Below, in pieces: positions 51,233 to 62,839 of a DNA stretch of 64,000 nucleotides. Each line of letters opens with the position of its first letter. Within the stretch, counting starts at the first letter, position 1. The stretch comes from Agaribacterium sp. ZY112 (GTDB lineage: Bacteria; Pseudomonadota; Gammaproteobacteria; Pseudomonadales; Cellvibrionaceae): contig NZ_CP166840.1 in NCBI RefSeq assembly GCF_041346925.1, positions 1,426,001 through 1,490,000 of the forward strand, read 5' to 3'. The position numbers and the translations under genes were made by a program. The notes under the pieces are model-generated. The model did no database searches. It had not been told where the DNA came from and worked only from the letters and a program-made list of their open reading frames with translations.

Positions 51233-53266
51233 TTATTGATTCCAAAGGCGCTTCAACAAGTTCCACTTGGTTTCATCAAAGCCTTGCCACTCGCCCCAAC
51301 CTGCAGTGTTCGAGATTGGATCGTAAGCATGCTTGTACAAACCACCGGTGTCACCTGACTCAGGGTTAATACCCCAGTAACAACCTTGGATTTCTTTTTC
51401 GGCCATGTAGTCAACAAAGACATTCTGCCATTGCTCATCAACACCTGGAGTCACGTGGCCCCAACGGTTGATGTCGCGAACGCTAGAACCATTTGGCCAA
51501 TCTAGGTGTCCACCAAACTCACCGACAACCATGGCGAAACCTTGCTCACGTAGGTAACCAAAGTGCTCGTCCCAGCCTGCGTAAAGTACTTCTGGCTCGA
51601 TCACAATGTCACACTTCGCATCACCGGCTTCGTCGCCTTCTAAGCTCGCACATTCTGGATCGTTTTGATCCATAAAGGCACTCTTAACATAAACTGAAGG
51701 GCCGTAAGCGTGTGGAGAAAGTACTAGGCGCTCTTTAGGAATGTTTAATGGATCTACGCCTTGACCAACAAGGTTTTCACCCCAGTTTGGTACTGATGAC
51801 TCGTCACCGTGAGGCTCGTCGCCAGTGGCGCGTGTGCCACCTGATACACCTTCAACAAAGACAAGAACGTCCGTGTTAACTTCATTGATCGCTTGGTAAG
51901 CGTTCTCAGAAAGCGTTTTCCATTCAGACCATGTGTAGTCATAAGGCTCGTTAAAGATATCAATACCAACGATGTTGTCTACGCCAAGTAGCTCTTGCAT
52001 GCCAGCAAGTTCACGCAGATCGTCAAGCCATAGTTCTTCGTTGTATTCGTGTACGGTAACGCCTGGGCCTACGTCGGTGCCACAAGAGTAAGTTTCACGG
52101 GTGTAGTCGTAATCTTCACGATCAGCATCAACATAAGGAGGCACTGCATCTAAACGACCTGCACGCCAGCCGAGGTAGTTTGAGCATGAGTGAATATCAA
52201 GGATCACGCCCACGTCATTGGCATCAGCAAGTTGGATAAATTCTTCCAAAGACTTACGCGCATTTTCGCCGCGAACAGATGGGTGGTTTTTAAGAACCAC
52301 ACCTTTACCTTGTGGATCGGTAGGATCTAGAGTTTGAGGAGCAATTGGTACACGGATAACGTTAATACCTTGCTCGGTAATCTCGTCAAAAGTTTGCTGC
52401 ATGTCACGGCCAGAACCGGCGCTGCCATTAGTCCAGAAGGTGTTACCTACATAAAGCTCCATCGGTGCGCCGCTTGGGTTGACGCTGTCGTTAGACGGCT
52501 CATGACGACCTTCTAAACCAAACCAGTTGCCACATTGCATAGGCATAATGTCACCGTTCTTGGTGATATTACCTGTTGCGTCTACGCGGTACGTGCCGGT
52601 AACTGGAGAGACTGAAGGCGTTGGTGATGGCTCCATTGAAGGCATCATTGAAGGTTCTGGTGATGGCTCCATAGACGGCATCATTGAAGGTTCTGGTGAT
52701 GGTTCCATAGACGGCATCATTGAAGGTTCTGGTGATGGCTCCATTGACGGCATCATTGAAGGTTCTGGTGATGGTTCCATAGACGGCATCATTGAAGGTT
52801 CTGGTGATGGTTCCATAGACGGCATCATTGAAGGCTCTGGTGATGGCTCCATAGTAGGTATTATCGTTGGCATGGGTGAAGGTGACGGAGATGGTTGACT
52901 GCCGTCTTTGCCATTAAATATAAAGTTGGTAGGAATCGTTGAGCCACCCGGAGATGCAATAAAACCGAAGTTCACTTGCTGGCCACTGCGGATATCGCTG
53001 TTGTAACCCATATCACCCAGTACATAGGTAGAGCCTACATGAGAAATAATTTTGGCATTCCAGATTTGGTCGATGTCAAAGTCGGCTTCAAACTCTACGG
53101 TCCAACCGCTTACGTTTGTAGACTCGTCATTTTCAATAATAGTGGTGCCCTGAAAGGCTGCGCCCCAGTCGCCATTTGAAGACATGTTGACTGTCGCTGC
53201 ACTGGCCCCAGCTGAGGCAATTAAGCTCGTCAGCGTAGCGGCTAATAGTGATTTTTTCATTAACAA
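51233..53266 (-). CDS. Secreted GH5 glycosidase with N-terminal CBM2
   Basis: The 677-residue protein has a signal peptide (about 1-23), then a family 2 carbohydrate-binding module (about 24-122: [43 protein letters not shown]). A linker of about 90 residues follows, with six [12 protein letters not shown] repeats, then a GH5 catalytic domain. The acid/base Glu lies in [18 protein letters not shown] and the nucleophile Glu in [13 protein letters not shown]. It is likely an endoglucanase of cellulose or a related beta-glucan, outside the cell; the exact substrate is inferred from CBM2. Mature size and layout fit secreted cellulases of marine saccharolytic bacteria. Confidence 0.9.
52629..52856 (-). 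repeat. 36-bp tandem repeat, six copies, encoding the GH5 linker
   Basis: Six near-identical 36-base units encode [12 protein letters not shown] on the minus strand. Units differ only at a few synonymous bases (for example GGTTCC versus GGCTCC on the plus strand), which indicates recent amplification or ongoing homogenisation. Copy changes would alter the linker by 12 residues and keep the frame. Confidence 0.88.
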
Positions 53267-54928: not shown

Positions 54929-55759
54929 CTACAAAGCGATTTGCAGTAGCATTCGTAAACCCGTCACAAGTAAAATCACCGCAAACACTTTTTTAAGTTT
55001 TGCCGCATCCAGCTTTGCCGCTAGTGAAGCACCTACTGGTGCGAACACCACGGTTAAAGGCACAATACATAAAAAAGCGAGCAGGTTAACTAAACCCAAA
55101 GTACCTGCTGGTGCATCGACAGGAGTATTGCCGAGTAGCAACATGGTTAGTGCTCCGGGCAATGAAATAAGTAAGCCAATGGCGGCCGCAGTACCAACGG
55201 CTTTATGAGCAGGATAGTTGCATAAGGTAAGCATAGGTACAGAAAGGGTACCCCCACCGATACCGATCATTGAGCTAAAAAAACCAATGCATGAGCCCAT
55301 TGCACTTTGGCCTAACTGACCTGGCAGTTGTTGAAATATTGACGACTTACCGGTTCTGAATAACATATTCAACGCTGATAAGGTCGCTATTAGACCAAAC
55401 AAGATTGTAAACCAAGTGCCGTTAACCCGAGTTACCAGCCAGCTACCTGCTAATACGCCAATAAAAATAAATGCGGCCCAGCGTTTTAATAACGCAAAAT
55501 CGACATTACCTTTTTGGTTGTGTGCTCGAATAGAGCTAATAGAAGTCGGCACGATGGTTGCCAGCGAGGTAGCTGTTGCTACGACCATGGCGGTGTCTGC
55601 TGATACCCCAAAGCTTTGAAACAAAAAAAATAATACCGGCACAATAACAATGCCACCGCCTACACCTAAGAGGCCAGCTAAGATACCGGCAAATGCACCG
55701 GTAGCGACCAGTGCTAAAAAGCTAGGTCCATGTTGTGTTAAAAATTCAATGCTGCTCAT
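54929..55759 (-). CDS. TauE/SafE-family membrane exporter
   Basis: The 276-residue protein has about eight membrane segments in two repeated halves. Each half opens with the family Gly-rich motif: AGILAGLLGVGGGIVIVPVLFFLF and CIGFFSSMIGIGGGTLSVPMLTLCN. TauE/SafE proteins export sulfite, sulfoacetate or other organic acids. The gene follows mesX-mesD on the same strand, separated by a 12-bp hairpin, so a link to sulfur-amino-acid metabolism is tempting but unproven. Confidence 0.86.
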   Translation of the reverse strand: MSSIEFLTQHGPSFLALVATGAFAGILAGLLGVGGGIVIVPVLFFLFQSFGVSADTAMVVATATSLATIVPTSISSIRAHNQKGNVDFALLKRWAAFIFIGVLAGSWLVTRVNGTWFTILFGLIATLSALNMLFRTGKSSIFQQLPGQLGQSAMGSCIGFFSSMIGIGGGTLSVPMLTLCNYPAHKAVGTAAAIGLLISLPGALTMLLLGNTPVDAPAGTLGLVNLLAFLCIVPLTVVFAPVGASLAAKLDAAKLKKVFAVILLVTGLRMLLQIAL

Positions 55760-55787
55760 TCACTACTACTTACTATGATCATTTACT

Positions 55788-55815
55788 GCCTTGGTTATAG
55801 GTTTATAACCAAGGC
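55788..55815 (-). promoter_or_regulatory. Perfect 12-bp hairpin between mesD and the TauE-type gene
   Basis: GCCTTGGTTATA (55788-55799) pairs with TATAACCAAGGC (55804-55815) around a 4-base loop, 44 bases past the mesD stop and 28 before the TauE-type start. No U-tract follows on the minus strand. It could protect the mesXD 3' end or attenuate the exporter gene. Confidence 0.55.
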
Positions 55816-55859
55816 ACTGGTTTTGCTTTTTAAGCATCGCTTCTAGATCGACCCAGGCG

Positions 55860-56888
55860 TTAGACTGAAAGTTCTTCTCTCACAATGGCTGCACCTGCGT
55901 TTAGGGCATCAAGTTTGGCTTTGGCAACCCCTCGTGGCAGTGGTGCCATACCACAGTTAGTACAGGGGTAGAGTTTATCAGCATCTACATAGTTAAGTGC
56001 TTTACGTAAGGTGGCTGCGACTTCTTCCGGCGTCTCGATCGTATTACTGGCCACATCAATGGCGCCAACCATTACTTTTTTGCCTCGAATCAGCTCAAGT
56101 AAGTCAATTGGCACATGTGAGTTATGACACTCAAGCGAAATGATGTCGATATTGGATTGCTGTAGTTTAGGGAATATTTGTTCATATTGCCGCCATGCAG
56201 AGCCTAAGCTGAGCTTCCAGTCAGTGTTGGCTTTAATACCGTAACCGTAACAAATATGCACAGCAGTTTCGCATTTTAAACCTTCTATGGCTTTTTCTAA
56301 GCAGGCAATACCCCAATCATTCACATCATCAAAAAACACATTAAAAGCAGGTTCATCAAACTGGATGATATCAACACCTGCGGCCTCTAATTCTTTTGCT
56401 TCTTGATTCAGTATAAGAGCGAATTCCCAAGCCAGTTTTTCACGGCTTTGATAATACTCATCGTAAAGCGTATCAATCATTGTCATTGGGCCGGGTAAAG
56501 CCCACTTGATCGGTTGATCAGTTTGTTGGCGCAAGAACTTAGCATCTTCAGTAAATACAGACCTTGGGCGACTTACTGGGCCTATCACCGTCGGTACGCT
56601 GGCATCGTATCGATCACGTATTTTTACGGTTTTACGCCTATTAAAATCAACGCCCTCTAGGTGCTCGATAAACGTGGTTACAAAGTGTTGGCGCGTTTGT
56701 TCGCCATCACTCACAATATCAATGCCCGACTGGGATTGTTCTTGCAGTGCAATACGCAAAGCATCTTGTTTGCCGCTTACTAATTCGTCATCTTGTAATT
56801 TCCAAGGCGACCAAAGCGCTTCGGGTTCTGCAAGCCAAGAGGGTTTAGGTAAGCTACCGGCCGTTGATGTAGGCAATAATGTTTTCAT
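55860..56888 (-). CDS. mesD: Core-type methionine synthase MesD
   Basis: The 342-residue protein matches only the C-terminal catalytic half of MetE: PTSTAGSLPKP, DGEQTRQHFVTTFIEHLEGVDF, ALPGPMTMIDTLYDEYY, IIQFDEPAFNV, then the zinc site His211/Cys213 (VHICYGYG), Glu253 (SLECHNS) and Cys309 or Cys312 (YPCTNCGMAPLPRG). It lacks the N-terminal folate-binding half, so it should be folate-independent. Small synthases of this type that sit next to DUF1852 are the published MesD family. MesD needs the DUF1852 protein MesX and oxygen to make methionine from homocysteine. MesX is encoded 20 bases upstream. Confidence 0.88.
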   Translation of the reverse strand: MKTLLPTSTAGSLPKPSWLAEPEALWSPWKLQDDELVSGKQDALRIALQEQSQSGIDIVSDGEQTRQHFVTTFIEHLEGVDFNRRKTVKIRDRYDASVPTVIGPVSRPRSVFTEDAKFLRQQTDQPIKWALPGPMTMIDTLYDEYYQSREKLAWEFALILNQEAKELEAAGVDIIQFDEPAFNVFFDDVNDWGIACLEKAIEGLKCETAVHICYGYGIKANTDWKLSLGSAWRQYEQIFPKLQQSNIDIISLECHNSHVPIDLLELIRGKKVMVGAIDVASNTIETPEEVAATLRKALNYVDADKLYPCTNCGMAPLPRGVAKAKLDALNAGAAIVREELSV

Positions 56889-56908
56889 AATAACACTTCA
56901 ATAAAATT

Positions 56909-57886
56909 CTATAGTTGATAGCTTGCGGACCATTGATCAAGAATATTCTGGTATGGCTTTAATAGCTTTTCTTCTGCAAATCTACCCTGTTTAATCGCCA
57001 ACTGGCTGCGCTCTTCTCTGTCATAAACGATTTGAGTTAATGAGTGATCTGAATGCTTTAAGTTAGGTTGGTAAAACTTTCCTGCTGTCGCGTTGGCGTT
57101 ATAAATTTCAGGGCGATAGATCTTTTGGAAGGTCTCCATCGTGCTAATAGTGCTGATGAGTTCTAGGTTGCTGTAATCGCATAGCAAATCACCAAAGAAG
57201 TAAAATGCCAAAGGCGCAACACTGTTTTCTGGCATAAAGTACCTAACTTCAAACCCCATCTTTTTAAAATACTGCTCTGTCAAAGACGACTCATTTGGTA
57301 GGTATTCAATACCTAATACTGGGTGTTGATTTTCAGTGCGGCGATAGATCTTGTTATCCGAAACACTTAGGCATATGACTGGTGCTTTATTAAAGTTTTC
57401 TTTGTACGTGCTCGATCTTATAAAGTCTTGGAAAAGCTTGCCGTGCAAGTCACCAAAATCCTCTGGAATACTAAACTGGGTTTGATCTTTATTGTGATTA
57501 GGCAATAGCACGCTAAAGTCATAATCACGAACATAAGAAGAAAAATTATTGCCTACTATGCCTTCAAACCTTTTGTTGCTTTGGTGGTCGAGAATATGAG
57601 TCTTAAGAATTTCAATCGATGGGAAGTGCTGTCCATTCCCTTCGATATCAATATCAACGGAAATAATTTCCAACTCAACGGAGTAACGATCACCCTTAGG
57701 GTTATCCCAATGGGCGAGCGCATTAAAGCGGCTGTTCACCATGCGTAGGGCGTTACGCAAATTCGCTTGGCGACTCTCGCCCCGAGCTAAATTAGCGAAA
57801 TTGGTAGTGATGCGTGTACTGTCTGAGGGGCAATAGTTTTCATCAAAACTAATGCGTTTGATTGTGTATGCGAAATCGTTGCTCAT
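56909..57886 (-). CDS. mesX: Putative oxygenase MesX (DUF1852)
   Basis: The 325-residue protein matches the DUF1852 family as I know it: FAYTIKRISFDENYCPSDSTRITTNFANLARG, LRNALRMVNSRFNALAHWDNPKGDRYSVELEIISVDI, and the C-terminal YRPEIYNANATAGKFYQPNLKHSDHSLTQIVYDREERSQLAIKQGRFAEE. DUF1852 was named MesX after genetic work showed that MesD needs it and oxygen. The methyl source is thought to be made by this protein, but the chemistry is unsettled. No classic metal or flavin motif is obvious. It leads the mesX-mesD unit. The start follows a 331-base spacer with a candidate operator. Confidence 0.88.
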   Translation of the reverse strand: MSNDFAYTIKRISFDENYCPSDSTRITTNFANLARGESRQANLRNALRMVNSRFNALAHWDNPKGDRYSVELEIISVDIDIEGNGQHFPSIEILKTHILDHQSNKRFEGIVGNNFSSYVRDYDFSVLLPNHNKDQTQFSIPEDFGDLHGKLFQDFIRSSTYKENFNKAPVICLSVSDNKIYRRTENQHPVLGIEYLPNESSLTEQYFKKMGFEVRYFMPENSVAPLAFYFFGDLLCDYSNLELISTISTMETFQKIYRPEIYNANATAGKFYQPNLKHSDHSLTQIVYDREERSQLAIKQGRFAEEKLLKPYQNILDQWSASYQL

Positions 57887-58218
57887 CGTATCTAGTATCC
57901 AACTCTGATTTTTCCTGTGTCCCCATGGCTTTTTTAGATCTCATCTTGTGATCAGCAAAAGCAGGCTGCACGTTATACGCATAGCACTTGATGAATAAAA
58001 TTGATTTTATTTAATGGAACTGTGAGTTTTGCTCATGCTTGTGTGCAGGCAAGGCTGGGCGGGGCTTTTGCTTAGGTGGTATTGGTTAGTCGTTTAGTAT
58101 TTAGCTTTATGGTTGAGTGTAATGGGTAGGTGAGTTAGCCATGTGTGAGTCTATTGGGGGCTTGTTGGTTTGCCTTGTTTTTTCTACATGCCCTTAAATC
58201 GGCGGCATGTGGTAGGTC
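57887..58218. other. Spacer upstream of mesX, holds one operator-like site
   Basis: This 331-base spacer separates mesX from the 3' end of the MetR-like gene. It contains the 23-base site at 57992-58014 and otherwise shows GT-rich sequence on the plus strand without a gene, strong hairpin or terminator. Confidence 0.5.
57992..58014. promoter_or_regulatory. Candidate MetR-type site upstream of mesX
   Basis: The 23-base site begins TGAATAAAA and ends TTTAA; inside it AATAAAAT (57994-58001) and ATTTTATT (58004-58011) form a perfect dyad. It lies 106-128 bases before the mesX start. The reverse complement of the site at 59157-59179 matches it at 17 of 23 positions. The outer TGAA..TTMA frame recalls the MetR consensus TGAA-N5-TTCA, though the spacing is longer. 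Confidence 0.6.
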
Positions 58219-59127
58219 CTAGCTCTTGCTTGCTTCCGCTGCTTGTTTTTGAGTGCGGGCGAGTTCTATAAAGGCTTCAAGATATTCAATGTTGGCGTCA
58301 CTTTCACGGGTGCCTAAAAAAATCTGCTTGTCTATGCCGCTTTCACCCAAGCGCACCACAGCCAGTGGTAACTTAGTGCAGTATTCTTCAGCTAGCCAGC
58401 GAGGTAGAGCCGCCACACCGCGCCCACAAGCCACCATTTGCAGCATGATTTCGGTGGTCTCACTGGTTTTGTGGTGTTTGGGCACCACTGCCGCTGGGTT
58501 AAGAAATTGAGTGTAAATATCGAGCCTGTCGGTAGCGACTGGGTAGGTAAGCAAAACTTGCTCACGTAAATCTTCAGCTTGTGCGTATTCACAAGTTGCT
58601 AAGTGGTGCTGCTTGGGCACCACTAACACCTGCTCGTAATCAAACACCGGTTTAAAGCATAGGCCGCTCTTATAGAACGGATCTGGTGTTACCAATAAAT
58701 CGATTTCGTAATCCAGTAAAGCGCGTACACCGCCAAATTGAAACTTTTGTTTTACATCGACATCGACGTCTGGCCACATATCTAAAAACGGTGAAACAAC
58801 CCTTAATAACCACTGATAACAAGGGTGGCACTCCATACCAATACGCAAGGTGCCACGCTCACCCTGAGCGATTTGTTTGAGCTTGCTATCGGCATTATCG
58901 AGCATGGGCAGCACACGGCTAGCGATATTAAGTAGATAGCGGCCTGCCTGCGTGGGTCGTAGGCTGCGTCCCTCACGTATCCAGATCTCGGTGCCCAGCT
59001 GGTCTTCGAGTTTTCGTATGCTGTGGCTCAGCGCAGATTGGGTTACACACAGCTTTTTGGCTGCAGCGGTTAGGGAACCGTGCTGTTCAACAGCGTGAAC
59101 AATCTTAAGATGGATGCGTTCAATCAT
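58219..59127 (-). CDS. metR: LysR-family regulator, MetR-like
   Basis: The 302-residue protein aligns well by eye with E. coli MetR: MIERIHLKIVHAVEQHGSLTAAAKKLCVTQSALSHSIRKLEDQLG at the start, LRIGMECHPCYQWLLRVVSPFLDMWPDVDVD, GLCFKPVFDYEQVLVVPKQHHLA, LLTYPVATDRLDIYTQFLNPAAVVP and MLQMVACGRGVAALPRWLAEEY. MetR uses homocysteine as coeffector and activates metE and other methionine genes. Here it should control mesX-mesD (same strand, 332 bases downstream) and the divergent reductase-like gene (101 bases away). Both spacers carry the shared site. Confidence 0.9.
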   Translation of the reverse strand: MIERIHLKIVHAVEQHGSLTAAAKKLCVTQSALSHSIRKLEDQLGTEIWIREGRSLRPTQAGRYLLNIASRVLPMLDNADSKLKQIAQGERGTLRIGMECHPCYQWLLRVVSPFLDMWPDVDVDVKQKFQFGGVRALLDYEIDLLVTPDPFYKSGLCFKPVFDYEQVLVVPKQHHLATCEYAQAEDLREQVLLTYPVATDRLDIYTQFLNPAAVVPKHHKTSETTEIMLQMVACGRGVAALPRWLAEEYCTKLPLAVVRLGESGIDKQIFLGTRESDANIEYLEAFIELARTQKQAAEASKS

Positions 59128-59156
59128 TATGTGTATGAGTAAAATTAATGGATGGG

Positions 59157-59179
59157 TGAAAATATACCATTTTTATTCA
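59157..59179. promoter_or_regulatory. Candidate MetR-type site in the metR/reductase spacer
   Basis: On the plus strand the 23-base site starts TGAAAATATACC and ends TTTATTCA; on the minus strand it starts TGAATAAAAATGG. It matches the mesX-upstream site at 17 of 23 positions. It lies 30 bases before the metR start and 50 bases before the reductase start, a position that would suit autorepression and activation of the divergent gene. Confidence 0.6.
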
Positions 59180-59228
59180 CTTTAGAAGGGCTCTAAGCTG
59201 TTTAGCTCTTAAGTGTTGAATTATTAAC

Positions 59229-60023
59229 GTGGGCTTCGATATGGATGAACTTACTGCTGCGCCAAGGTATACGCGTGTGACACATACCTGTCGGGTCGTT
59301 GATGTCATGCCTTTAAACACGGCTACGGTTAAGGTCGAACTGCAATCGTCTTTGGCGCTGCACTATCATGCGGGCCAATATTTAGCACTTGAGTTAGATG
59401 TAAACGGTGATGGAAAAACACACTCGTTATTTTATTCGATTACTAACGCATTTAATCCTGAGCAGCCTCAACGCTTAGAATTATTTATTCAAAACAGCAG
59501 TGAATTTTCAGAAAAGATCATTACACGGCTTCTTGAATTAAGTCAGGTTAATGCCGAAGTTACCGTGAACTTGCCGATGGGCCAAGCCTATTTGCAAACA
59601 GGTTTAGATGCGACTCATGTATTAATTGCGGCAGGTTCTGGTATTTCTAAAATTAAATGCATCGCAGAAGAAATCTTAAAGCAAAAGCCAGATGCCGATA
59701 TCAGCATCTACTGGTCGAATAAAAATATTGGCGACTTTTATCTGCTTGAGCTTTTCCAAGCTTGGCGGTCTCAGCACGATAAGCTGAGATTTACCCCAAT
59801 TTTAGAAACGGATGAAGTCGCTTGGTTGGGGCGCTCGGGCTATATCTACAAAGTGATTGACGATGACTTTGAGCAACTTGAAGCCACAAAACTGTACTTA
59901 TGTGGTTCGCCACAAATGGTCTATGGCACCATTGATAAGCTTAAACACCTTGGTCTACAAGAGGCTAATTGTTATTCCGATGCTTTTGAGTTTGCGCCGC
60001 GAGACCAACAAGAAGCCAGTTGA
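59229..60023 (+). CDS. NAD(P)H-flavin reductase-like protein
   Basis: The 264-residue protein has the ferredoxin-reductase/Fre fold: LHYHAGQYLALELDVNGDGK, SLFYSITNAF (flavin motif, without the usual Arg of RxYS), VTVNLPMGQAYL, the pyridine-nucleotide motif VLIAAGSGISKIKCIAEEIL, SIYWSNKNIGDFYLLELF and YLCGSPQMVYGT. No iron-sulfur motif is seen, so it should hand electrons to free flavin or to a partner protein. Divergent from metR and sharing a candidate operator with mesX, it is a good candidate electron donor for MesX. The start is a GTG without a clear ribosome site; an ATG at 59241 is an alternative. Confidence 0.82.
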   Translation: MGFDMDELTAAPRYTRVTHTCRVVDVMPLNTATVKVELQSSLALHYHAGQYLALELDVNGDGKTHSLFYSITNAFNPEQPQRLELFIQNSSEFSEKIITRLLELSQVNAEVTVNLPMGQAYLQTGLDATHVLIAAGSGISKIKCIAEEILKQKPDADISIYWSNKNIGDFYLLELFQAWRSQHDKLRFTPILETDEVAWLGRSGYIYKVIDDDFEQLEATKLYLCGSPQMVYGTIDKLKHLGLQEANCYSDAFEFAPRDQQEAS

Positions 60024-60604: not shown

Positions 60605-62839
60605 CTAATCTGAGAATCGACGGGTATAGAGTGCAGCATTCAGCTCTTTTGATGCTTCAACCATCTCAGCATACGGCTCATCAGTCACCGAAATAAAGCC
60701 AATATTATAGTTTTCACCATCATAAGCTCGGCCGGTAAGTGGTCCATCTGCATATTGAAAGTAGTGCGCACCCACAAAATAGGGGTTATCAATAACAGAG
60801 TACATATAGTCTTTAAGCATTTTAGCTCGGTCTTTCTGGTCAGCCGCCACAATTAAGCCTGGGTGATACATACCCCTATCAGTCGCTCCCATATGGAATT
60901 CGCCAATAATTGCGGGCATATCAATTTCTTCCATAAAATCCCATTTTTTCTTAATCAGGCCTTCTTTGTAAACATTAAAGCTAATCACATCAACATGTTT
61001 CGCAGAAGCTTTTACAACTTCAATAGGCATGCCCCAGTCTGGGAAACGTGCACCCAAATAGAGGTGGTTGGGCATATACTTTTTCATCATCGTATTTACA
61101 ATGCTGAAATATTGTTCCCCATACGCACCGAGCATATCACCATAATCTTTTTCCTGAGCCTCGGTTGTGAGCGAAGAATCAATACCTTTATCGAACTCAG
61201 ACCAGCTCGATATATTCTTCTTCCAAGCTTCATTTAGCTCGGCTATTGATGCATAGCGAGCTTTCATCATTTTTGTGAAATGAGCCTTTGTAGGTACTTC
61301 TGCACCGTCCCTTCTTAGAGTGTTTATCACAATGCCGTACAGTGTTGATTTGGAATTTGGTCGACCGAAACTCTTTTCATTATCGATAAATACACCAACA
61401 CACCATGGGCTATCTTGCACTTCCCTAGCGACTTTCATAGCCGTTTTTTCAGTAGCTTCGGCAAATGCAGGGTCAAATACGTCCGGTAATGCCCCCCAAA
61501 AATCCTGCCCACTCGATACTGTTTTGTACTTACCTCGAATCCATCCGTTAGCAAAATAGGGTATTTTATTGTTTTGATACAATTTAGGAGACGTCCAATT
61601 ACCTAACGACGTGAATCCCCAGCTGATCATTCGATCAACGGTTACATCGAGCCATTTCTGCTCATAGTTTTTTCCGTATTTTCTTTCCAAATTTGCCCTT
61701 TGAAAATTAAACGACTCGCCTTTCTTGAGTGCACCTGAGTGTGTATTTGGCATGTAACCAAAGTGCTTTGCGAGCGGCTCACCTTTTTTTGGCAACCACT
61801 CAAACATGTCTGCACGAAGAGCTAGTTCGACGTGGCGACCGGTTCGGTCTTGGACCGATTCGTAGTCATAACCTGTCATTGTTGCTGCATCGCCTAAACG
61901 TATGATATCGAGGCCCGTTGCGAAATATGCATAGCCCTCTGGGTCGATTAGCATCCACTTGCCTTTAACTTTTTCCGCACGAAAATAACCAGTGGCTTTA
62001 CTTTTGGGGCCATTTTTCCAACCGCCAAAACGACTTCGATCGTGCATTAACTCGCCGGTTAACGTTTCCGCTTCCTTTTCGCGCCGTTTAATCAGTTCCT
62101 TTTCCGAGTGGATTTTACCGGGATAGTCTAACTTGGCGTTTTGACCAAACTTATCGACAATATCTGTTAGATAGTCAGGATTTTTAGGTGGGTTCTTTCG
62201 CAGTCGAATATTGTCGATAGTAATCTCTTTGTTAAATAAAGCGGATTGCACGCTGAACCGTATATGCTTGATCGCACTTGTATTAATATTTTTCTTTCCC
62301 CAAAACGAAATAAATTGCTCATCATCAGACTCCCAGGTAACTGGATTGTTACGCAGGCCCGATAAAAAATTCAGCTCTATATCACCACGGCCATCAGGCG
62401 TAGCTAGATCGTGCCCCGCAATCTTCGCGTAATAGGTTCGACTCGGACCCACGGGCACATTTACTGCACGCGTATAATTTGCACCTTTTGCGTCACCTAC
62501 GTCTAAATATATGTGAACTGAGTGCTCACCTTGGTTGCTGATATCGAAAGCGATATTGAAATCATCGTATGCGCTCCAGTCGTATGGTGTCTCTGGCTTC
62601 AATACAAACGCTGACCATGCATTGTTTTCAGAGTTAAACTTAACATTTAAAGCGGTTGAACCGGTCTCTACTAACGCTCCTTTTGAGGCGGGAAAAGCCA
62701 TCTCTGGGGCAATAACACCGTCTTCAAAATCGTAAAGTATTTCAAGCGTTTCATCTGTATCGACAGGAATATGCGCGTTCTCTGTTTGAGTACACGATAT
62801 GGACAAGGACGCGAGTATGAGGAAAAGCACTTTTTTCAT
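60605..62839 (-). CDS. GH50 beta-agarase-like lipoprotein
   Basis: The 744-residue protein has a short signal peptide with a lipobox-like SISC (Cys16), an N-terminal carbohydrate-binding-like beta domain (about 30-220), and a GH50 catalytic barrel. Visible hallmarks are GYFRAEKVKGKWMLIDPEGYAYFATGLDIIRLG, the acid/base Glu in VGVFIDNEKSFGRPN, and the nucleophile Glu in MPAIIGEFHMGATDRG, with AHYFQYADGPLTGRAYDGENYNIGF near the end. GH50 agarases cut agarose to neoagarobiose or neoagarotetraose, from the cell surface here if it is lipidated. It lies downstream of a GH16 agarase gene on the same strand. Confidence 0.93.
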   Translation of the reverse strand: MKKVLFLILASLSISCTQTENAHIPVDTDETLEILYDFEDGVIAPEMAFPASKGALVETGSTALNVKFNSENNAWSAFVLKPETPYDWSAYDDFNIAFDISNQGEHSVHIYLDVGDAKGANYTRAVNVPVGPSRTYYAKIAGHDLATPDGRGDIELNFLSGLRNNPVTWESDDEQFISFWGKKNINTSAIKHIRFSVQSALFNKEITIDNIRLRKNPPKNPDYLTDIVDKFGQNAKLDYPGKIHSEKELIKRREKEAETLTGELMHDRSRFGGWKNGPKSKATGYFRAEKVKGKWMLIDPEGYAYFATGLDIIRLGDAATMTGYDYESVQDRTGRHVELALRADMFEWLPKKGEPLAKHFGYMPNTHSGALKKGESFNFQRANLERKYGKNYEQKWLDVTVDRMISWGFTSLGNWTSPKLYQNNKIPYFANGWIRGKYKTVSSGQDFWGALPDVFDPAFAEATEKTAMKVAREVQDSPWCVGVFIDNEKSFGRPNSKSTLYGIVINTLRRDGAEVPTKAHFTKMMKARYASIAELNEAWKKNISSWSEFDKGIDSSLTTEAQEKDYGDMLGAYGEQYFSIVNTMMKKYMPNHLYLGARFPDWGMPIEVVKASAKHVDVISFNVYKEGLIKKKWDFMEEIDMPAIIGEFHMGATDRGMYHPGLIVAADQKDRAKMLKDYMYSVIDNPYFVGAHYFQYADGPLTGRAYDGENYNIGFISVTDEPYAEMVEASKELNAALYTRRFSD

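Follow-up and report, generated by a model that had tools for sequence, protein, structure and literature searches.

The 64,000-nucleotide stretch of the Agaribacterium sp. ZY112 genome considered here (contig NZ_CP166840.1, positions 1,426,001 to 1,490,000; hereafter the window) contains a MetR-type-linked mesXD module of known kind, in which a core methionine synthase (MesD) and its partner MesX, a DUF1852 protein, are accompanied by a LysR-type regulator, a divergent flavin reductase of the Fre type, and a membrane protein of the TauE/SafE family (Table 1). The favored reading of this locus, to which a probability of roughly 0.6 is assigned, is that MesX is an oxygen-using enzyme supplied with free reduced flavin by the linked reductase, within a module under MetR control. 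Free reduced flavin is proposed because oxygen is required, because three unrelated flavin reductases occur in the mesX neighborhood, partly under MetR-type sites, and because E. coli, which possesses flavin reductases of its own, needs none to be added. The confinement of the window's reductase to the neighborhood of mesX in the surveyed genomes also points to reduced flavin as what drives the pathway. The origin of the methyl group in the MesX reaction is a question in core metabolism, and the combination of unrelated flavin reductases in one neighborhood with MetR-type sites makes the notion of a flavin-using MesX directly testable on specific genes.

Parts of this picture were already in print. 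According to Price 2021, MesD requires MesX and oxygen but not MetF, E. coli carrying mesD and mesX alone makes methionine, the support of growth is lost without oxygen, and mesD and mesX are often found near a putative flavin reductase; the metF deletion data in the same report rule out methyl-tetrahydrofolate (methyl-THF) and leave methylene-THF possible. A regulon study counts both PF08908-metE2 and metH among the well-conserved targets of MetR and gives ATGAA-N5-TTCAT as the motif (Leyn 2014, PMC4239095). In Acinetobacter baumannii AB5075 supplied with vitamin B12, the transcripts of mesX (ABUW_3198) and of a flavin reductase (ABUW_3196) decreased by 8.3 and 2.5 log2 units, respectively (2026 study, PMC12892962). 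Given these three sources, the main idea of a first-pass annotation of this DNA was partly known, and its proposal of the reductase as a candidate for the "missing electron donor" was in broad terms already available, since the link to a flavin reductase had been published (Price 2021).

Flavin reductases in the mesX neighborhood

The distribution of the window's reductase was surveyed in a sample of 244 genomes from the same order, of which 41 contain mesX and 203 lack it. Orthologues scoring at least 268 bits occur in 10 of the 244 genomes; all 10 carriers have mesX, and no orthologue was found in the 203 genomes without it. Each of the 10 is divergent from mesX and lies 470-1358 bp upstream of it, and the next-best match in the order (155 bits) is unlinked to mesX. 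The corresponding hypergeometric probability (6.6e-9 for 10 of 10 among the 41 mesX genomes) assumes independent genomes, and the genomes are in fact related; the carriers fall into five family codes, with 6 of the 10 in a single one. In a sample of 398 genomes from the phylum, the reductase was recovered at E 1e-45 in its own genome only, with mesX present in 43 others. Among the matches listed in both sets, 29 of 119 other reductase homologues have, as counted by eye, a longest contig of exactly the same length as that of one of 119 other MesX homologues. The reductase is thus borne out as a good candidate electron donor, every orthologue in the order sample standing beside mesX, and the linkage that the earlier annotation had expected elsewhere is conserved in the window's subfamily and order but is not general.

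By its sequence, the reductase is a subfamily of its own within a recognizable fold. The AlphaFold2 model (53 sequences; mean predicted local distance difference test, pLDDT, 91.2) finds its best Protein Data Bank (PDB) match by fold in E. coli Fre (1qfj_A; E 1.2e-21, template modeling score 0.91 by target length), and the sequence search agrees, making Fre the closest solved relative by both routes at ~24-28% identity. The protein has the FNR fold, is small, and lacks a 2Fe-2S domain; it scores 157.6 bits against the NCBIfam NAD(P)H-flavin reductase model, under the equivalog cut-off of 230, and at the place of the Fre motif R-P-F-S, which is gapped in the alignment, the 10 loci with this FNR/Fre type have L-[FS]-Y-[ST]. 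Paralogues with 38-39% identity in the order are encoded by longer frames (357-383 amino acids).

To place this reductase among those of other mesX loci, a set of 171 loci was assembled from the window, 43 loci of the phylum sample, 80 of named genomes, 36 of the order less 6 duplicates, and 17 of plasmids (drawn from 209 plasmid records). One plasmid locus (L218) repeats another (L068), leaving 170 distinct loci, and neighborhoods were counted within 4.5 kb of mesX. A mesD gene is near mesX at 168 of these, the sole two others being from Pseudoalteromonas luteoviolacea (L113 and L126). Linked flavin reductases of three unrelated families were found at 41 of the 170 loci: a RutF/PF01613-type protein at 23, where it invariably follows mesD at its 3' side in the same orientation; an MsuE-like protein at 8, immediately 5' of mesX in seven cases and placed between the two mes genes in the remaining one; and the FNR/Fre type at 10, always divergent. 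As a general partner of mesX the Fre-type reductase therefore fails, being present at 10/170 loci, with unrelated reductases or none of the three types at the remainder. Among representatives, PF01613 was detected in 4 of 4 proteins tested (of 23) and PF03358 in 2 of 2 (of 8). One PF01613 protein is nearest to the RutF and HpaC models and another to HsaB, both under the cut-off, and one MsuE-like protein exceeds the MsuE cut-off; the RutF/HpaC, HsaB, and MsuE families feed two-component flavin monooxygenases, as the model names partly indicate. On a quick FastTree phylogeny of MesX proteins, the PF01613 type changes 9 times (5 forced by starred branches), the MsuE-like type 4 times (2), and the FNR type 3 times (2). 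Nine of the 10 FNR loci fall within one starred set of ten, so this type is mostly a single lineage.

Separate small flavin reductases of the same families likewise stand beside oxygen-dependent enzymes in the two-component flavin monooxygenases (e.g., SsuD/SsuE, MsuD/MsuE, RutA/RutF, HpaB/HpaC, and LuxAB/LuxG), the oxygenase halves of which showed no detectable relation to MesX in sequence and fold searches. The closest described systems, those of Acinetobacter baylyi ADP1 and Sphingomonas koreensis, share the mesX-mesD pair, a core MetE without the folate half, and a nearby flavin reductase (Price 2021); the putative flavin reductases named there are ACIAD3522 and Ga0059261_2931. At two Acinetobacter loci that were compared, a RutF/PF01613-type reductase follows mesD, whereas the window has an unrelated, divergent FNR/Fre-type protein with its own operator copy. 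On a Pantoea plasmid (L207, 7214-7489), a small gene resembling antibiotic-biosynthesis monooxygenases directly follows mesD, the place of a reductase elsewhere. Fragmentary or interrupted mesX copies also occur: one genome (G082, C1:2175963-2176446) holds two extra fragments, one with an inner stop, and an intact copy elsewhere, and mesX carries one inner stop at L104 (6001-6969) and likewise in G442.

The regulator and its operator-like sites

With E. coli MetR as the query, the mes-linked LysR protein scores 196.6 bits and the next protein in the genome 68.5. Its best NCBIfam model is also MetR, at 210.1 bits; as this is under the equivalog cut-off of 382, the protein is named a MetR-type regulator and not certified as a MetR equivalog. 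Sites resembling those of MetR stand before its putative targets. The pattern RTGANNAAAA-N26-TTTTNNTCAY, with up to one mismatch allowed, has exactly two matches in the window, both perfect, against 0.03 expected, which upholds the shared operator-like site described earlier (two 46-bp copies, found only there in the window). Across the FNR loci, copy A, beside the reductase, is present in 10/10 with up to one mismatch per half, and by eye a 20-bp core with up to four differences precedes mesX in 10/10. The shorter motif TGAR-N5-YTCA is present in the 300 bp preceding mesX at 115 of 154 loci, compared with a mean of 4.3 and a maximum of 9 in 50 shuffles. At the MsuE-like loci it precedes the reductase in 5 of 8, where the spacing between reductase and mesX is 43-58 bases in four cases and 65 in the fifth. 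The only other place in the genome within one mismatch of the long pattern (G000, C1:1499710-1499755) lies ~10 kb past the right edge of the window. The PF08908-metE2 system of the regulon study resembles the window in its MetR-type regulator and in having sites like ATGAA-N5-TTCAT ahead of mesX; the window differs in its longer 46-bp double element and in the second copy before the FNR reductase (Leyn 2014). One entry of that study reads "hypothetical reductase (PF08908 in Xanthomonadales)", perhaps in error for a different family.

On its single contig of 4.28 Mb, the genome further encodes MetE (a frame of 805 amino acids, starting ~2.4 kb before the left edge of the window), MetH (1240 amino acids), and MetF, so that by gene content there are three methionine synthases, MesDX among them; the emphasis first placed on the MesD locus needs correcting, as this is not the sole methionine synthase of the genome. 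A related 46-mer with two mismatches is located ~82 bp before metE. Together with the best match to MetR in the genome, this site indicates that one LysR regulator probably serves both the mes locus and metE. The description of the regulator as MetR-like thus stands, and the suggestion that it belongs to this locus alone does not.

Probable common regulation raises the question of whether the reductase is simply a gene of the MetR regulon with another task (e.g., reactivation of MetH), lying near mesX only as a fellow target. The genome does have MetH, and metH is a well-conserved MetR target in Leyn 2014 (PMC4239095). This explanation is nevertheless considered very unlikely, as the reductase tracks mesX (10/10 carriers, 0/203 genomes without mesX, with mesX as the gene mapped) and unrelated reductases occupy the same neighborhood, partly on the same strand directly before mesX or after mesD.

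MesX and the proposed mechanism

The AlphaFold2 model of MesX (85 sequences) has a pLDDT of 86.8 and a predicted template modeling score of 0.88, and its whole-chain comparison with the PDB and BFVD returned no match at E 0.001, the best Z in a second look being 3.7. A sequence search of the PDB found no related chain at a significant E-value either, and the same fold-search pipeline readily matched Fre for the reductase. With no solved match for a confident model, MesX may have an unseen fold, at least by whole-chain comparison, which suggests that its chemistry is not simply readable from known enzymes. The residues invariant across the 85 sequences are rich in tyrosine, arginine, aspartate, and glutamate; H188 is invariant and H148 nearly so, and no classic metal triad stands out among the conserved residues.

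These histidines could point to a metal-dependent MesX for which the reductase reduces iron, or to a MesX that receives electrons by direct protein-protein transfer, in either case with no free flavin. Direct transfer would also fit one reductase homologue (P0180, a 58% identical relative) that bears an N-terminal 2Fe-2S ferredoxin domain, the only such case in 120 among the matches listed. These variants seem unlikely, since the conserved histidines number just two, with no obvious metal triad, and three unrelated reductase families share reduced flavin as their product and hardly a docking surface.

Under the favored reading, the locus would be a MetR-controlled, oxygen-dependent methionine module. 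MesD, a zinc methyltransferase, would methylate homocysteine to methionine with a methyl supply that depends on MesX and oxygen, a dependence that the literature shows for other strains. The divergent Fre-type reductase would oxidize NAD(P)H and give free FMNH2 or FADH2 to MesX, which with reduced flavin and oxygen would produce or expose the methyl donor. MesX would then act as the oxygenase in a flavin-dependent system of two components, its fold being unmatched among solved structures, and the LysR protein would be the cell's MetR, judging by the sites probably acting on mesXD, the reductase, and metE through related operators.

Several observations weigh against this reading. Because E. 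coli with mesD and mesX only makes methionine, the cognate reductase is not strictly needed, and the genome studied here holds another Fre-like protein (C1:3711187). At 129 of the 170 distinct loci, the 4.5 kb around mesX hold none of the three reductase types, and the rate of 41/170 is a raw count. No locus among the 170 has two kinds of reductase; in the subset of 155 loci flanked on each side by 2.5 kb or more (19 PF01613-type, 8 MsuE-like, 10 FNR, and 118 with none), ~2.7 such loci would be expected by chance, and this mutual exclusion is accordingly suggestive, weak evidence when taken alone, and not proof. The operator evidence is uneven: the copy before mesX passes the test applied to copy A in 4 of the 10 FNR loci, and by class, over the 171 loci, TGAR-N5-YTCA precedes mesX at 101 of 130 loci with none of the reductases, 17 of 23 of the PF01613 type, 4 of 10 of the FNR type, and 0 of 8 MsuE-like loci. 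The ferredoxin domain of P0180 belongs here as well, as does the lack of any resemblance of MesX to flavoproteins in sequence or fold in searches of Pfam and the PDB.

Flavin- and folate-dependent methyltransferases exist (e.g., TrmFO and ThyX), and on their model reduced flavin might act as the reductant while MesX hands the one-carbon unit of 5,10-methylene-THF to MesD as methyl, the need for oxygen being indirect. The metF deletion data exclude methyl-THF only (Price 2021), two folate genes (a formate-THF ligase gene and folD) lie downstream of mesXD on a Paracoccus aminovorans plasmid (L205, 8387-10981), and a gene similar to that of methylene-THF reductase (MTHFR) is near mesX in five loci (L071, L072, L149, L163, and L215; at two of them divided between two frames), with MTHFR and DUF5981 domains in the one tested (L215). 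Such a neighbor is rare, no folate-binding family was detected by Pfam in MesX or MesD, and growth support disappears without oxygen (Price 2021), all of which make the folate route an improbable one. An isocitrate lyase/phosphoenolpyruvate mutase family gene is near mesX in six loci (L038, L043, L169, L208, L213, and L214).

A bolder version of the oxygen- and flavin-dependent reading is put forward only tentatively, as possible though doubtful: MesX would found a new structural class of oxygen-dependent reduced-flavin enzyme that, independently of folate and cobalamin, converts a central metabolite into a methyl donor. Flavin reductases from no fewer than three unrelated families would have been recruited to feed it, and TauE/SafE proteins would have joined it repeatedly to move a by-product.

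The TauE/SafE neighbor and layout of the locus

A TauE/SafE gene is found near mesX at 75 of the 170 distinct loci (64 of the 147 with full flanks), in three main arrangements and with 31 changes on the MesX tree. These neighbors differ in subfamily and position (e.g., window 54929-55759, L218, and L215), and they are much more frequent than the background in the order would predict, with 254 copies in 56 genomes (a mean of 4.5 per genome), giving a chance of proximity of ~1% for a 3.7-Mb genome, a background taken from the window's order only. Literature searches returned no paper on a TauE-mesX neighborhood and none with both TauE and DUF1852, and TauE is not mentioned in the accessible parts of Price 2021. 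The recurrent neighbor is a further clue to a substrate or by-product, and as a weak inference the protein may transport an anionic compound, sulfur-containing or otherwise, that is connected with the pathway.

Coordinates in the window are from open reading frame calls on the 64-kb stretch, which reproduce those first given, and families were assigned by Pfam and NCBIfam profile searches, which agree with the five gene identities first proposed.

Table 1. Features of the mesXD locus and their positions in the window
Feature	Position	Strand	Remarks
TauE/SafE-family membrane protein, 276 aa	54929..55759	-	PF01925 178.7 bits (cut-off 32.6); 100 bp after mesD
13-bp hairpin in the mesD-tauE gap	55787..55816		No T run after the hairpin on the mesD strand, by reading
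mesD, core methionine synthase without folate half, 342 aa	55860..56888	-	PRK09121 686.8 bits (cut-off 392)
mesX (DUF1852), 325 aa	56909..57886	-	PF08908 603.7 bits (cut-off 25), residues 1-321; 20 bp before mesD
46-bp MetR-type operator-like copy B	57991..58036		~105 bp before mesX
LysR-type regulator, 302 aa, best MetR match in genome	58219..59127	-	LysR helix-turn-helix and substrate domain
46-bp MetR-type operator-like copy A	59135..59180		Between lysR and reductase
FNR/Fre-type NAD(P)H:flavin reductase, 264 aa from GTG (ATG at 59241 also possible)	59229..60023	+	NAD_binding_1

The lysR and reductase genes diverge across a gap of 101 bp. MesX exceeds the PF08908 cut-off across its full length. 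In MesD, which adjoins this DUF1852 gene, Meth_synt_2 is the sole Pfam domain, the N-terminal folate half is absent, and the nearest solved chain is 3rpd_A (660 bits). The motifs HIC (from 211), SLECH (from 251), and TNCGM (from 310) align with MetE, in which residues of this type (His-x-Cys, Glu, and Cys-Gly) are the zinc binders; the protein is accordingly the catalytic MetE domain alone with its zinc-site motifs kept, as had been described. Elsewhere in the window, a protein with a tandem linker repeat is encoded at 51233-53266, where the opposite strand holds an open frame at 52527-52898, and the gene at 60605-62839 includes a domain resembling an agarase carbohydrate-binding module (CBM).

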